Shown piece after piece: positions 57,619 through 64,000 of a stretch of DNA of 64,000 nt. This DNA comes from Desulfolutivibrio sulfodismutans DSM 3696 (GTDB lineage: Bacteria > Desulfobacterota > Desulfovibrionia > Desulfovibrionales > Desulfovibrionaceae), in NCBI RefSeq assembly GCF_013376455.1, contig NZ_CP045504.1, positions 682,001-746,000 of the forward strand, in the 5' to 3' direction. Positions within the stretch are counted from its first letter, which is position 1, and every line of letters begins with the position of its first letter. Below the pieces are notes generated by a model, which was given only the letters and a program-made list of their open reading frames with translations, was not told the origin of the DNA and did not search any database. Made by a program: the position numbers and the translations under genes.

Positions 57619-58995
57619 TCAAGGGCCATGATCGATGGCGTTACGGCCCTGGTAGCGCACGGCCAGGATCGTGATGTCGTCGGATTGGGGGGCGTCCCCG
57701 GCATAGGCCTGAACCGCCTGGAAGATGCCTTCGACCAGTTCTTTCGGTCCCCGATGCCGGTCGGCCCGGCAGGCTTCAAGCAGCCGTTCGTTGCCGAACA
57801 GGGCGTTTTTATCGTTCATGGCCTCGGTCACGCCGTCGGTATAGGCCAGAAGCGTATCCCCCACAGCCAGGGTGAGCGTGCCGACCTTATAGGGGAAATC
57901 GGGCATGGCCCCGAGCACCAGCCCGCCCGAGGGCGGCAGAAAGGCCGTGGTCCCTCCCGGACGCACCGCGACCGGCAGGTTGTGGCCGGCGTTGGCGTAG
58001 TCGAGACGGCCTGTGCGCAAATCCAATATGGCGCAAAAGGCCGTGACGAAAAGCCCTGACTCGTTGTCGTGGGCCAGCTTGTCGTTGACCCGGGCCGCGA
58101 TTTCCACCGGGCCCCGCTCCGGCCGGGTATAGGCCTTGAAAAGGGTCATGGTCACGGCCATGAACAGCGAGGCCGGCACGCCCTTTCCGGCCACGTCGCC
58201 GATGACCAGAAAAATCCGGTTTTCGTCCAGGGCGTAGTAATCGTAAAAATCGCCGCCCACCTCCTTGGCCGAATCCAGCATGGCGTAAAGCTCCACCTCC
58301 GGCCGATCCGGAAAGGCCGGAAACATCCTGGGCACAATGCCCATCTGGATGTCCCTCGCCACCCGCAATTCGCCCTCGATGGCCTCCTTGGCCGCCCGGG
58401 TGCGGCGTTCCTCCACGACGTTGCGCACAATGCCGACGAAGACGGCCATGCCCAGGGCGTTGGCCACGAGCATGGGCACGGCGGCGGACCTGACCACGAC
58501 CAGGGCGGTGGCCACGGGCGTGCCGAAAACCACCCCGGCCACCATGTGGAAGGCCTCGATGCCAAGGGCCAGGGCCACGGCCTGGGTCGTGGTGAGGAGC
58601 TGACCGCCACGGAACCGATACACGAGTCCGCCGACCAGTCCGGCCAGGATGGTGGACAGGGTGCAGCCGTAGCAGGTGGGACCGCCCAGGGTGAACCGAT
58701 GGGCCCCGCCGAGTAGTCCCGCCCCGAGTCCGGCCAGGGGACCGGCCAAAAGACCGGCCAGGGCCGGGCCCAGGTCGCGGATGTTGATGTAGGAGCCGAG
58801 GATGCTGACCCCGGACAGGGTGCCGTAGATGGAGAAGAGGCCGAAAACCACGGCCATGACGGCCAGGTTTTTCGGCGTGCGTTTCCCGTCAAGAATCTCG
58901 GCGAACACCCGGGTGCGCGTCAGGCCATAGGCCAGGACCATGACCACGCACACGCTTTGGAGCAACGCCACAAGGCTCGATGTGGTCGAATCCAT
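57619..58995 (-). CDS. SpoIIE-type PP2C phosphatase with N-terminal 5TMR membrane domain
   Basis: A 458-aa protein. Residues 1 to about 190 form membrane segments with NIRDLGPALAGLLAGP and GGPTCYGC, typical of the 5TMR-LYT sensor. The C-terminal half is a PP2C/RsbU-like phosphatase with VGGDFYDYY, IGDVAGKGVPASLFMA, ANAGHNLP, AYTDGVTEA and SDDITILAVRY; metal aspartates are present. It probably dephosphorylates an anti-anti-sigma-type protein in response to a membrane signal. It lies 9 nt downstream of the OPT-like gene. Confidence 0.85.
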   Translation of the reverse strand: MDSTTSSLVALLQSVCVVMVLAYGLTRTRVFAEILDGKRTPKNLAVMAVVFGLFSIYGTLSGVSILGSYINIRDLGPALAGLLAGPLAGLGAGLLGGAHRFTLGGPTCYGCTLSTILAGLVGGLVYRFRGGQLLTTTQAVALALGIEAFHMVAGVVFGTPVATALVVVRSAAVPMLVANALGMAVFVGIVRNVVEERRTRAAKEAIEGELRVARDIQMGIVPRMFPAFPDRPEVELYAMLDSAKEVGGDFYDYYALDENRIFLVIGDVAGKGVPASLFMAVTMTLFKAYTRPERGPVEIAARVNDKLAHDNESGLFVTAFCAILDLRTGRLDYANAGHNLPVAVRPGGTTAFLPPSGGLVLGAMPDFPYKVGTLTLAVGDTLLAYTDGVTEAMNDKNALFGNERLLEACRADRHRGPKELVEGIFQAVQAYAGDAPQSDDITILAVRYQGRNAIDHGP

Positions 58996-59004
58996 GCATC
59001 CCTT

Positions 59005-60960
59005 CTAATAGGCCAATCGCCCCAGGGACTTCATGATCAGCGTCGCGCCCATGGAGAACATGCCCATCAGCCCCATGCCGCAGGAAAAGCCGGCCAAAAG
59101 CACCGGCGCATACTGCCGCCACATGGCTCCATAGCGCTTGAGGAAATAATACCGGCCGAGCATGGCCCCCAACAGTTCGAGGATGAGGCCATGGGGAGTG
59201 CTCTGCCCCAGGCCCCGCACGATGCCGTAGACCAGGAGCACCGGCAGCCCGAAGACGCTTAAAATGGCATAGACAATGAGCCCAAGGAACATCCCGGCCG
59301 AGACGTACCAGCCGCTTAAGGCCTGAAAGAAAAGCGAATTGCCCTCCAGGGTGGAGGTCTGCATGAGCAGGGTGTTTAAGGCCTGCAAATGCCACAACTC
59401 CTGGGCATAGGGATAGGAGGCGGACGGGATGGGGGCCAGTTGCCAGATGAACTGGGAAAAAAACAGGCTGGCCACCATGACCACCGGAAAGACCACGATC
59501 TCGGCCTTGATGATGCCCCGCAGGCTGGTGCCGGTCAGTTCGATCTCCCGGAAATCCACCGTGGCCTTGCCATAGTTGTGGATGGGGATGGGGGCGTACC
59601 AGATCTCGATGCCCTGGTAGCCGAAAAACCTGGCCCCGGCGATGAAGCTGGCCTCCCGAACCAGGGGCAGGCTCACGAACTGTCCGGCGATGCCCTCCAT
59701 GCGCGCGGTGATGTAGGAAATGACCGGGGTATAGATGAAGCCGTACAAAATGAAAAAGATCCACGGAAAATTGGGCACAAGCCACACGCACATGGCGATG
59801 TAGGACAGGGTGGACACCACGTAGATGGCCACGGATACCCAGAAATTGATGTCCCCCCGGGCCTTGTTGGTGATGAACAGCGCCCGATACCCCACCCCGC
59901 TCGACCCCTTCCCGAAGGACTTGGCCACCTGCCATACGCCGATGATGCCGATGGCCAGCCCGAGGCCGATGCCAAAACTCATGTAAAAGTCGAAGTTGTT
60001 GGCGAACACCGTGTCCACGGTGCCCATGCCGTAGCGCCAACGGTGCAGGATGCCGTGCTCGAACAGGATGGGGTTGGCCACCACGGTGATGAGCAGCCCC
60101 ATCAGACCACCGATGACCGCCCAAAACGGCAAGACCATGCCCGTAAACAACAGCCCCAGATCGAACTGGATGCCCGTGGCCACGGCCGGAAGCCATTTTT
60201 CCGTGCTGCGGGTGAAGTCCGCCCAGGGAATGGGAATGAGGCGGAGGGGCTCGGTGAACACCAGCCCCGAAACCACGGGAAAAAGGACGTACACGGCCCC
60301 AAAGACCAGTCCGATCATGCCTCCGATGGAAAAGACCCGCCATTTCCAGCCGGTTTTCTTGTCCTCGGTGGATTCGGCCAGGGCCATGGTGCCCAGGGCC
60401 CCGACCGGGGCCATGGGAAAGGGCAGCTTTTCCACATCGGAGGTGATGCGGTACAGGGCGTATCCCAGGCCGAAATGGTCCACCCGCTGGATGATCTGGG
60501 AACCCACCAGAAGCAGGATGGGGATGAGCCAGTCGCGGTGCAAAAACGTGCGCTGCAACAGGGATTCGGAGCCCACGGCCGGGGCCACCCAGGCGGGGAT
60601 GAATTCCGTCAGCCCCAGCATCTTGGCCGCGTCGGACTGGATAAGGTATTGGTTCCAGAGCAATCCCGAGAACGGCGAGGCCATGGCCGCCCCGGCCATG
60701 TAGTACAGGAGGAAGATTTCCTGCTGCTTGAGTTCGGTGTAGGCCCGCTTGGCGATCTCCGCGAACAGGATGATGGTCACCCACCGCGCGGCCGGGCCGA
60801 TGCCCGTGCCGATGACCAGTTGCAGGTACATGCTGCCGGGCATCATCAGAAAGCCGATGAACACCGCGCCAATAATGGTCTTCCAGTCGAAGCCCTCCTC
60901 GAAATGCTTGGGCTGCGGAAGAAGATCGCGATATTCTTGCAGTTCCTTGTCGTCGTACAT
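59005..60960 (-). CDS. OPT-like/DUF6784-DUF6785-type membrane protein
   Basis: A 651-aa polytopic membrane protein from ATG 60960 (GGAGAG upstream) with about 14 hydrophobic segments. It resembles oligopeptide-transporter-like uncharacterised proteins; LPFPMAPVGALGTMALAES is similar to conserved OPT/YSL loops. Substrate unknown. It is followed closely by the phosphatase and preceded by a second large protein of the same general type. Confidence 0.65.
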   Translation of the reverse strand: MYDDKELQEYRDLLPQPKHFEEGFDWKTIIGAVFIGFLMMPGSMYLQLVIGTGIGPAARWVTIILFAEIAKRAYTELKQQEIFLLYYMAGAAMASPFSGLLWNQYLIQSDAAKMLGLTEFIPAWVAPAVGSESLLQRTFLHRDWLIPILLLVGSQIIQRVDHFGLGYALYRITSDVEKLPFPMAPVGALGTMALAESTEDKKTGWKWRVFSIGGMIGLVFGAVYVLFPVVSGLVFTEPLRLIPIPWADFTRSTEKWLPAVATGIQFDLGLLFTGMVLPFWAVIGGLMGLLITVVANPILFEHGILHRWRYGMGTVDTVFANNFDFYMSFGIGLGLAIGIIGVWQVAKSFGKGSSGVGYRALFITNKARGDINFWVSVAIYVVSTLSYIAMCVWLVPNFPWIFFILYGFIYTPVISYITARMEGIAGQFVSLPLVREASFIAGARFFGYQGIEIWYAPIPIHNYGKATVDFREIELTGTSLRGIIKAEIVVFPVVMVASLFFSQFIWQLAPIPSASYPYAQELWHLQALNTLLMQTSTLEGNSLFFQALSGWYVSAGMFLGLIVYAILSVFGLPVLLVYGIVRGLGQSTPHGLILELLGAMLGRYYFLKRYGAMWRQYAPVLLAGFSCGMGLMGMFSMGATLIMKSLGRLAY

Positions 60961-61094
60961 CAGCTCTCCGTCTTTCGTCCCGGTCGTGAAAGTCCCTGGT
61001 CTGGCTGGCGACGCTCAGCAGGGTTGCGGCCTGGCGAGGTCTTCCTGTGCATCGAAAGGCGTCATCCAACACCACGCGCGTCCTGGCGGCGCCT

Positions 61095-63065
61095 CTAGTT
61101 CGGCAGCACCAGATAGCTTTGCCCGGCATAGATGCCGATGACGGCGTAGATGCCGCCCATGAGCAGATCGCCGATGATCAGCCCCACAAAAAGCATTCGC
61201 ACCCGCCGAAAGAGCGACACCCCGCCGTAGCGCAGGGTGAGCTGGTTGCACATCCAGCCGATGAGGAAACTGAACCACAGGATGCGCATGGCCGAACTGT
61301 ACATGGTCAGGTAGCCGATGGGATGGATGGGCCACCAGTAGAACCGCTGGTAGCAGATCACCAGCACGAACATGATCACCGCCCCTGCCAGGGCGAACCC
61401 GATGATCCATTCGTTGGGCCCGGCCGGGGCGTCGAACAGGCGCTGCACGTTCTCGTACACCCCGACCGTGGTCTGGGTCTCCCAATCCACCTGGAGGTCG
61501 CGCAGGCCGTACTTGTGGCACAAGGCCAGCATGGCCGTAAACGAGACGATCACGGACAGAAAGAGCGCCACGCCAAGTCCGGCCATGATCAGGCGCTTTT
61601 GGCGCACGTTTTCGGTTATCTTGGAGAAATGCATCAGCGAGGGCATGAGCGATTCACGCAGATCCACAAACAGCACCTTCTGCATGACCGCCGCCATCAT
61701 AAGCCCGATATTGGAGAAAAACCCCGATCCGAAAAAGGCCAGAAGCCCGTCCGTGGGCGCGGCGGTGAGGGTGAAATAGGCCAGACCGCCCTGGCAGATG
61801 ATGCGCGTGGCCACCAGCATGATCACGAAAAAAATGCCCAGAAGCAGCACCGCCGGGACAAGCGACATGCCGAAATAGACGCACCAGGCCGCCAAAAGCC
61901 CAAGCCCGGCCAGGACGCCCCAGAAGGACAGGGCGGCGGAGATCCATTCGCTCTCGGCGGCCGCAGCCCGGCGGAAGGTCAGGGCATCCCTGGCGGCGGC
62001 GAACAGGTGTTGCCGGGCCAGCCAGACGATGAACAGGAAAAACACCCCGTAGGCCCCGATCATCTGGGTCTCCTCGGGACGGGTCAGGGTCGGGCCGAAG
62101 GTCACCCCCAGGGCGGACGAGGGAATCTGGTAGCCGATGACCTCGAAAAATCCGAACAACAGGCCGCCGAGAAGGTAAAACACCCAGAAGCTTAGGGAAA
62201 TCTGCCGGGCGGTCAGGTAGGCGAAGCCGATAAACGCCGGATAGAAATAGATGCGCAGCTTGCTGAACCCGGAAAAAAAACCAGTCTGGGGAAAATAGGG
62301 CCCCAAAAGAAACAGGGTGGGAAACTGGGGCACGGCCGGGTCGTAAAAGCCGATGCCGTTGATCGTATGCAGAAAGATCGGGATGAAAAGGCCCACCATC
62401 AGGAAACGGTCGGTGAAAAAGGCAAAGGGGCGGCCCTGGTCATAGGCCTCGGTCATGAGCGTGGGCACGCGCAGAAGCGGGAAATTCATGCGTTCGTTGG
62501 CCACCCACTGCCGGGAAAAGAGATTCACCAGGCAGACCATGACCAGGTAGCACAAAAGGATGAACACGCCCCAGGCAGCCAGGGGCACGATCCACGCCGA
62601 CCAGGGGATGCGGGCGAGCACCTCCAGCCAGCCCAAGCGATAGCCGCCCTCCAGGCCGTTGTACAGGGCCTCCACGGCGGACGGATCAATGGGCGCCCAG
62701 TCCTTGGGAACCAGGGGGGCCAGCACGTCCTTCCAGCGGTTGCCCACCGTGGCGAAATGGGCCGGGGCCGTGATGTTGATGAAAAACGTCCGGGCCAGGC
62801 CGGTATAGGCCACGCCGGAGACCACGACCATGAACCCCCAGGACACGAGGAGTTCGATGCCCGTGAGGACAGGATTTTTCCGAAAAAACAGGCGCGAGAC
62901 CAACGCCGCGCCAAGGGTGGCCACAAACAGGATGAAAAACGGCGCCAGGGGGAAATGCCCGCCCCCAAGGGGGGTGGCCGCCATGTACATGTTGTTGGCC
63001 GGGGTCACGGCGCAGATGACAAGCCCCATGACAATGCCCAAAACCACGCTTCGCGCCCGGATCAT
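61095..63065 (-). CDS. DUF6785-like large membrane protein
   Basis: A 656-aa protein from ATG 63065 with GGGAGG at good spacing; the open frame upstream of it is not supported. About 14 hydrophobic segments, with the loops SRQWVANERMNFPLLRVP and FFSNIGLMMAAVMQKVLFVDLRESLMPSL. Like the adjacent 651-aa protein it is related to OPT-like transporters of unknown substrate. The two may form a heteromeric channel. It lies about 100 nt downstream of the FtsX-like gene. Confidence 0.65.
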   Translation of the reverse strand: MIRARSVVLGIVMGLVICAVTPANNMYMAATPLGGGHFPLAPFFILFVATLGAALVSRLFFRKNPVLTGIELLVSWGFMVVVSGVAYTGLARTFFINITAPAHFATVGNRWKDVLAPLVPKDWAPIDPSAVEALYNGLEGGYRLGWLEVLARIPWSAWIVPLAAWGVFILLCYLVMVCLVNLFSRQWVANERMNFPLLRVPTLMTEAYDQGRPFAFFTDRFLMVGLFIPIFLHTINGIGFYDPAVPQFPTLFLLGPYFPQTGFFSGFSKLRIYFYPAFIGFAYLTARQISLSFWVFYLLGGLLFGFFEVIGYQIPSSALGVTFGPTLTRPEETQMIGAYGVFFLFIVWLARQHLFAAARDALTFRRAAAAESEWISAALSFWGVLAGLGLLAAWCVYFGMSLVPAVLLLGIFFVIMLVATRIICQGGLAYFTLTAAPTDGLLAFFGSGFFSNIGLMMAAVMQKVLFVDLRESLMPSLMHFSKITENVRQKRLIMAGLGVALFLSVIVSFTAMLALCHKYGLRDLQVDWETQTTVGVYENVQRLFDAPAGPNEWIIGFALAGAVIMFVLVICYQRFYWWPIHPIGYLTMYSSAMRILWFSFLIGWMCNQLTLRYGGVSLFRRVRMLFVGLIIGDLLMGGIYAVIGIYAGQSYLVLPN

Positions 63066-63162
63066 GCCCGCCCTCCCAGGGTGTCGGCCCGATTTCCGGC
63101 CGTAAAACGTGCCTGGAAGCAACGCATGTGACGCCCCAGGCGCATCCTCGCTTTGAGCGGCA

Positions 63163-64000
63163 TCATGCCCCCCTCGCTTTCTGCTCGGCAAACCCGGCGA
63201 CGATGTTTTCCTCGTAGGCCACCTGGTTTTCGGGGTCCAGGGAACGCCACACCAGAAGCTGTTTGCGCAGATTGTCCAAAAAGCCCTTGTTCAGGCGCTT
63301 CCACATGCCCGCCTCACCGGCCACCCGCCTCAAGGTCACCTGGATTTCCATGAACCCCGGGTTTTTCATGTCCGGCACAAACAGGATGTCCACGCGCTCC
63401 TTGATGCCGAAATCAAAGGGAGCCAGCCACACCATGGCCGTGAGCCGGAAGCAGGAACGCAGTTCGCGAAACGCCGTGTCGATCTCTCCGGGATGCGGCC
63501 CCTTGTCCGGAACGTCCCACGGGCATTCGAAGGCGAACTGGACGTCGTCGGTGGAAAAAAGGCCGTGGGAGATGTCCTGGTGGGACTTGTAATAGTCGTA
63601 CAAAAACCCTCCGGCGTATTCCTGCTCCCGAATGCGCATGAGAAACGGCAGATGCACGGAGATGACGCCGTCAATGGCCTCGGGCAGGGTCCAGGAACGG
63701 TTGACGTCGGGGATGGCGATCTCCCCAGCCACCTTGGAGGGATAGATGACCGACAAAAGGACCACGGCGATGACCAGGAGCATGGCCGCCACCCCGGCCA
63801 GGGAGGAATAGTTGGCGGTCATCCCGGCCCATATGGAGGTGCCGGACAACAGTCCGGCCGCGGTTTGGGCCAAGAGATATCCCAGGACGGCGCTGATGAC
63901 CGCAAAGGCCAGGGCTTCGGCGATGAACAGGAAGGAGACGTGGGTGGGGGCCAGTCCCACGGCCGTGTATACCCCGATCTCCCGTTTGCGCTCGTAGACG
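63163..64000 (-). CDS. FtsX-like permease with a C-terminal extension (5' end outside window)
   Basis: The frame is open through the right edge (VYERKREIGVYTAVGLAPTH), a segment typical of FtsX/MacB permeases just before the last helices. Two membrane helices follow, then about 200 residues of soluble sequence (from IPDVNRSWTLPEAIDGV to the stop) not seen in ordinary FtsX proteins, which end soon after the last helix. The missing N-terminal part and a possible ABC ATPase partner would lie beyond 64000. It begins the cluster with the two OPT-like proteins and the phosphatase. Confidence 0.75.
   Translation of the reverse strand, partial: VYERKREIGVYTAVGLAPTHVSFLFIAEALAFAVISAVLGYLLAQTAAGLLSGTSIWAGMTANYSSLAGVAAMLLVIAVVLLSVIYPSKVAGEIAIPDVNRSWTLPEAIDGVISVHLPFLMRIREQEYAGGFLYDYYKSHQDISHGLFSTDDVQFAFECPWDVPDKGPHPGEIDTAFRELRSCFRLTAMVWLAPFDFGIKERVDILFVPDMKNPGFMEIQVTLRRVAGEAGMWKRLNKGFLDNLRKQLLVWRSLDPENQVAYEENIVAGFAEQKARGA

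Follow-up and report, generated by a model that had tools for sequence, protein, structure and literature searches.

The described systems closest to the locus analysed here are the type VII, or mechanotransmission, ABC systems (MacB, LolCDE, LolF-LolD, FtsEX and BceAB), the OPT/YSL transporters (PF03169, TC 2.A.67), the M28 peptidases with their non-catalytic relatives, and ABC- or Wzx-dependent polysaccharide export. The known cargoes of OPT proteins are peptides, glutathione-like compounds and metal chelates rather than glycans, and the M28 relatives transferrin receptor and nicastrin are both without peptidase activity. In polysaccharide export, a set of glycosyltransferases is co-inherited with a membrane transporter. 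We analysed a 64,000-nucleotide stretch of DNA (the window; C1:682001-746000) from a 4.44 Mb Desulfobacterota genome, at the end of which the original prediction had placed four genes on one strand, encoding an FtsX permease, two OPT-like proteins of about 650 aa and a 5TMR-PP2C phosphatase. All four genes are present there, on the minus strand (Table 1). The predicted FtsX domain is real, but it makes up just the C-terminal end of a larger protein of 1,667 aa, hereafter M28-FtsX, whose start lies 4.2 kb outside the window. The suggestion that an ABC ATPase and further genes be sought past position 64000 was borne out, as the DNA beyond the window edge encodes a LolD-like ATPase followed by a short FtsX permease, FtsX1. 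The unit is a five-gene cassette in the order FtsX1 - LolD-like ATPase - M28-FtsX - DUF6785 - OPT2. The DUF6785 gene starts with an ATG at position 63065 that is preceded by GGAGGG, and the operon directly upstream of the cassette, encoding a histidine kinase, a TPR-like lipoprotein and an NtrC-type regulator, is arranged like QseE/QseG/QseF. A promoter and terminator scan of the region returned promoter-like sites at chance level and terminator-like sites within genes.

Table 1. Features of the window, of the DNA beyond it and of related loci. Positions with two dots count from the first letter of the window; C1 is the contig that holds the window unless another genome is named, and the prefixes L and G denote loci and genomes of the homologue collection.
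Feature	Position	Strand	Remarks
5TMR-SpoIIE (RsbU-type) PP2C phosphatase	57619..58995	-	PF07694 (1.3e-38) and PF07228 (2.6e-56)
OPT2, 651-aa polytopic membrane protein	59005..60960	-	No Pfam or NCBIfam match
DUF6785 protein, 656 aa	61095..63065	-	DUF6785 (PF20581, 4e-163) and DUF6784 (PF20580, 1e-33)
M28-FtsX, C-terminal 278 aa	63163..64000, to window edge	-	FtsX domain (PF02687) and cytoplasmic tail
M28-FtsX, full length	C1:745163-750166		N-terminal M28-like ectodomain, extra TM segments, MacB-like periplasmic core, FtsX TMs
LolD-like ATPase	C1:750175-750915		Directly upstream of M28-FtsX, outside the window
FtsX1, about 245 aa	C1:750967-751698		PF02687; upstream of the LolD-like ATPase
Histidine kinase, TPR-like lipoprotein and NtrC-type regulator	C1:751893-755485 (L005:14894-18486)		One operon, directly upstream of the cassette
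Glycosyltransferases of the window genome	C1:4003855-4014943 (L152, L153)		GT28a and two GT4 in one part, histidine phosphatase and GT28b in the next, separated by a large sensor hybrid kinase
Second SpoIIE-type PP2C paralogue	C1:1697573-1698334; G213:C64:5269-6030		One TGA in the read-through frame in both genomes
Split cassette	G106, C1:121000-140900 (L162)		FtsX1-LolD-M28FtsX, about 12 kb with a histidine kinase/NtrC pair, DUF6785-OPT2
Secreted 204-aa family, 288-aa family and PqqD-like protein	L081:11978-13870; L073:15121-16955		Downstream of OPT2
288-aa/PqqD-like pair of the window genome	C1:1456928-1458179		Unlinked to the cassette
Large ABC exporter, nucleotide-binding domain seemingly interrupted by a long insertion	L073:12039-14612; L081:16887-19553	- (L081)	Adjoins a CRP-like cyclic-nucleotide-binding protein and an RsbW-like HATPase

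Profile comparisons place the ABC parts of the cassette in the MacB/LolCDE (type VII, mechanotransmission) class. PF02687 is found in both permeases (E 3.5e-12 and 7.9e-14), and the ATPase matches MJ0796 (5e-74), MacB (2.5e-58) and LolD (1.7e-52). As in other type VII systems, FtsX C-terminal domains, a MacB-like core and an ATPase of the MacB/LolD class occur together, but here one permease bears a very large M28-like ectodomain together with additional TM segments, the near-obligate neighbours are two proteins with a predicted OPT fold, and the cassette encodes neither MacA/TolC nor LolA/B. The M28-FtsX profile, built from 34 homologues, matches M28 aminopeptidases over its first ~320 residues (2ek8, E 4.5e-13; YwaD 6hc6, about 5e-12; matched length ~290 residues) as well as transferrin receptor and nicastrin, while its later part matches MacB (5lil, 5e-10), LolC and LolF. 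The zinc-ligand His of the HxD motif, the Glu-Glu pair and the last His of M28 enzymes are replaced in 34/34 homologues, with F, S, A, R or P at the His of HxD and G, S, A or E at the last His, and one Asp ligand position is kept in 32/34. Because most of the zinc and catalytic residues are replaced in all homologues, the M28-like region is predicted to be a pseudo-peptidase ectodomain which, unlike M28 peptidases, is fused to a MacB-like FtsX permease.

The description of the two ~650-aa proteins as OPT-like held at the level of fold, more weakly for OPT2 than for DUF6785, and failed at the level of sequence. PF03169 matches neither protein, nor any other in the window genome, and comparison of OPT2 and DUF6785 by hhalign with four PF03169 proteins and with each other gave no significant score, the alignments being too shallow; by sequence, neither can be assigned to the PF03169 family. 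An AlphaFold2 model of DUF6785 (53 homologues; pLDDT 91.9, pTM 0.92) returned a single significant match when compared with the PDB using Foldseek, barley Yellow Stripe 1 (HvYS1, 7wsr_A; E 1e-6, probability 1.00, TM 0.65/0.71, 10% identity in the match), on which it superposes over its whole length and with which it shares the ~650 aa size class, at an identity of about 10-15%. The model thus indicates an OPT fold for DUF6785. OPT2 yielded a poor model (pLDDT 45) whose single significant Foldseek match was again 7wsr_A (E 1.8e-5, TM 0.44/0.47), and the order of secondary-structure elements is similar in the two models; an OPT fold for OPT2 is likely but not proven. Also unlike the OPT/YSL transporters, two different OPT-like proteins are here encoded together, alongside an ABC complex.

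Homologues were collected from an even sample of 247 Desulfobacterota genomes and from a scan of 84,980 GTDB species, which gave 247 OPT2 relatives; almost all of the 80 loci that were kept bear the labels of sulfate-reducing Desulfobacterota lineages, and among named relatives the nearest is Desulfovibrionaceae bacterium Ess09-06, whose OPT2 is 97% identical. In both the phylum sample and the 80 named genomes, the order FtsX1-LolD-M28FtsX-DUF6785-OPT2 recurs with little variation. Among the loci whose flanks are long enough to be scored, DUF6785 lies upstream of OPT2 in 81/84 loci, M28-FtsX in 59/64, LolD in 53/57 and FtsX1 in 47/54. One identical set of 15/247 genomes carries DUF6785 (over the cut-off), OPT2 and M28-FtsX, and this set includes a genome (G073) in which OPT2 sits on a separate contig and another (G106) in which the FtsX genes lie 12 kb away. 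The joining of an FtsX protein to the two large membrane proteins, which the original prediction had read as an uncharacterised transport system, is therefore upheld by a conserved five-gene order and by identical presence and absence across Desulfobacterota, and that reading is supported; of the four families whose linkage and co-occurrence had been expected, FtsX, DUF6785 and OPT2 hold together and the 5TMR-PP2C does not. In a few loci the FtsX genes lie elsewhere or are split off from DUF6785 and OPT2, as in G106, and in three loci (L078, L128 and L049) no DUF6785 gene adjoins OPT2. Its place ahead of OPT2 is taken in L049 by two ABC ATPase genes.

The 15 cassette genomes represent about nine families, and other genera of the host's family are without any part of the cassette. 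Searches with DUF6785 gave no match in plasmids and none in viral contigs. Across 51 loci, pairwise distances of the five cassette proteins are correlated (r 0.76-0.95), a result that vertical descent alone could give, and mean pairwise identity is highest for OPT2 (80%), followed by the ATPase (77%), and lowest for M28-FtsX (47%). A functional link to sulfate reduction was considered and rejected: dsrA is present in 15/15 cassette genomes but also in 121/247 genomes overall, which leaves a correlation of lineage or habitat only.

Further genes accompany the cassette frequently but not universally. Downstream of OPT2 in Desulfobacterales and Desulfobulbales, in ~40 loci, are a secreted 204-aa family, a 288-aa family and a PqqD-like protein, the latter two of which also form a pair in the window genome. 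The 288-aa family occurs in 7/15 cassette genomes versus 0/7 others, and a search for relatives of solved structure recognised none. In 27 loci, the cassette is linked to the ABC exporter with the seemingly interrupted nucleotide-binding domain and to its CRP and HATPase neighbours.

Several families carry, immediately ahead of FtsX1, a whole or partial gene set of the order GT28a-GT4-GT4-histidine phosphatase-GT28b-polysaccharide-deacetylase-like, whose glycosyltransferases are unlinked to the cassette in the window genome. Using the window genome's own GT28b, a family-28 glycosyltransferase, as the query at a threshold of E <= 1e-40, we detected GT28b in all 15 cassette genomes and in none of the remaining genomes among the 247, although in several of the 15 it lies on a different contig or far from the cassette. 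GT28a was found in the same 15 genomes plus four with weaker matches. The chance of identical sets is 2.6e-24 if genomes are independent, and since the genomes are related this value serves as a guide only; a control search with the PP2C phosphatase matched 58 genomes in a distribution unlike that of the cassette. Linkage and co-occurrence with the glycosyltransferases establish a shared process and are not proof that a glycan is the cargo. Because the cassette is found only in genomes with this particular glycosyltransferase set, it probably moves a sugar-containing molecule of the envelope. Co-inheritance of glycosyltransferases with a membrane transporter is shared with ABC- or Wzx-dependent polysaccharide export, but no Wzx/Wzy, ABC-2 polysaccharide exporter or outer-membrane Wza was recognised in the cassette, and its transporter parts are of the FtsX and OPT types.

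Building on the computed gene content and order, the modelled OPT fold of DUF6785, the ABC class, the loss of M28 active-site residues and the exact co-occurrence of GT28b, we infer a complex, a substrate, a direction of transport and a division of labour. We tentatively favour a reading, plausible rather than probable, in which the cassette encodes an ATP-driven five-subunit inner-membrane machine that exports or assembles a glycan or glycoconjugate, the OPT-fold pair serving as its conduit. The cytoplasmic glycosyltransferases (two GT28 and two GT4), joined in several genomes by the histidine phosphatase and the polysaccharide-deacetylase-like protein, would make the glycan or glycoconjugate that is the most likely substrate. 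FtsX1 and M28-FtsX would form a heterodimeric permease of the LolCDE/MacB class powered by the LolD-like ATPase, with the M28-like ectodomain acting as a non-catalytic binding or docking domain, while DUF6785 and OPT2 may jointly form the membrane conduit through which the product crosses or leaves the inner membrane. ATP hydrolysis would then move the periplasmic M28-like and MacB-like domains such that the product is extracted and pushed toward the periplasm or outer membrane. Several observations sit poorly with glycan export, namely that known OPT proteins carry no glycans, that the OPT2 model is poor, that the OPT2 and DUF6785 profile comparisons are not significant and that in some loci the cassette is split or DUF6785 is not found next to OPT2.

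In the main competing reading, the OPT-fold pair takes up a peptide or a metal chelate (metallophore), while the FtsX, M28-like and LolD-like parts would serve as a periplasmic capture or recycling partner and the glycosyltransferases would make or modify the chelator. The closest solved structure, HvYS1, is an iron-phytosiderophore transporter, the profile matches to M28, transferrin-receptor and nicastrin-like proteins suit the binding of peptide or protein, and many loci have a linked PqqD-like protein. However, ordinary OPT transporters need no ABC complex, the cassette has no receptor, siderophore-synthesis or metal-regulator gene, and four glycosyltransferases with a polysaccharide-deacetylase-like protein suit a chelator poorly, such that we regard uptake as unlikely, if the most serious of the alternatives. 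Somewhat less likely again is a Lol-like machine for lipid or lipoprotein extraction, with the OPT-fold proteins as scaffolds or lipid-handling subunits rather than conduits. Such a machine would account for the resemblance of the ATPase and permeases to LolD, LolC, LolF and MacB, and for a short FtsX1 paired with a long FtsX in a heterodimeric arrangement as in LolC/LolE, but the cassette lacks a LolA/LolB-like partner, and the strict retention of two large OPT-fold proteins, with OPT2 the most conserved, suggests that these do essential work.

Signalling genes adjoin the cassette, namely the histidine kinase-TPR lipoprotein-NtrC operon and the PP2C phosphatase in the window genome and CRP, HATPase and PP2C genes elsewhere, which is what would be expected of Bce/MacB-like sensing and efflux of envelope-active compounds that signals through a neighbouring PP2C or histidine kinase/NtrC pair. 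We consider this improbable, as the signalling partner varies by lineage and is missing in many, the PP2C is not co-inherited, and the cassette contains no adaptor or TolC gene. Because the regulators beside the cassette differ between lineages, being an NtrC/histidine kinase pair (NtrC also adjoins the cassette in Solidesulfovibrio), a CRP/HATPase pair or sometimes a PP2C further off, regulation of the cassette is lineage-specific. The original proposal that the phosphatase belongs to a four-gene unit and provides signal output coupled to transport is favoured by a PP2C start 9 nt after the OPT2 stop, on the same strand. This arrangement recurs in one more genome of the genus and in a single relative, but these are the only 3 loci in which PP2C directly follows OPT2; the full-length protein, 5TMR sensor included, has homologues in 3 further sample genomes without the cassette, and the phosphatase domain is matched in 58/247 genomes versus 15/247 for the cassette. 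The adjacency counts and the control search rule out PP2C as a core component, and coupling of transport to its signal output is now very improbable. The 5TMR-PP2C is a local, lineage-specific addition, probably regulatory and not a core part, and may regulate the operon in the window genome. The TGA in the second PP2C paralogue may be only a normal stop.

We found no paper on DUF6785, the M28-FtsX fusion or this cluster in the open-licence literature. While the individual folds are known, the combination of an FtsX-type ABC machine with an OPT-fold pair is, as far as can be told, undescribed. It is possible, though on balance doubtful, that the cassette represents a new composite class of transporter in which an ATP-driven mechanotransmission ABC complex, obligately joined to an OPT-fold hetero-pair and a pseudo-peptidase ectodomain, energises the passage of an envelope glycan or glycoconjugate through that pair. 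If so, these would to our knowledge be the first OPT-fold proteins in an ABC machine, and the first to handle something other than a peptide or metal chelate, and the cassette would join FtsX-type ABC machines and the OPT fold, transporter types not known to cooperate. DUF6785/DUF6784 and OPT2, the latter without any family model, are thereby tied to a fold, to constant partners and to a pathway that can be tested, and the cassette would point to a shared, patchily inherited surface component of sulfate-reducing bacteria.
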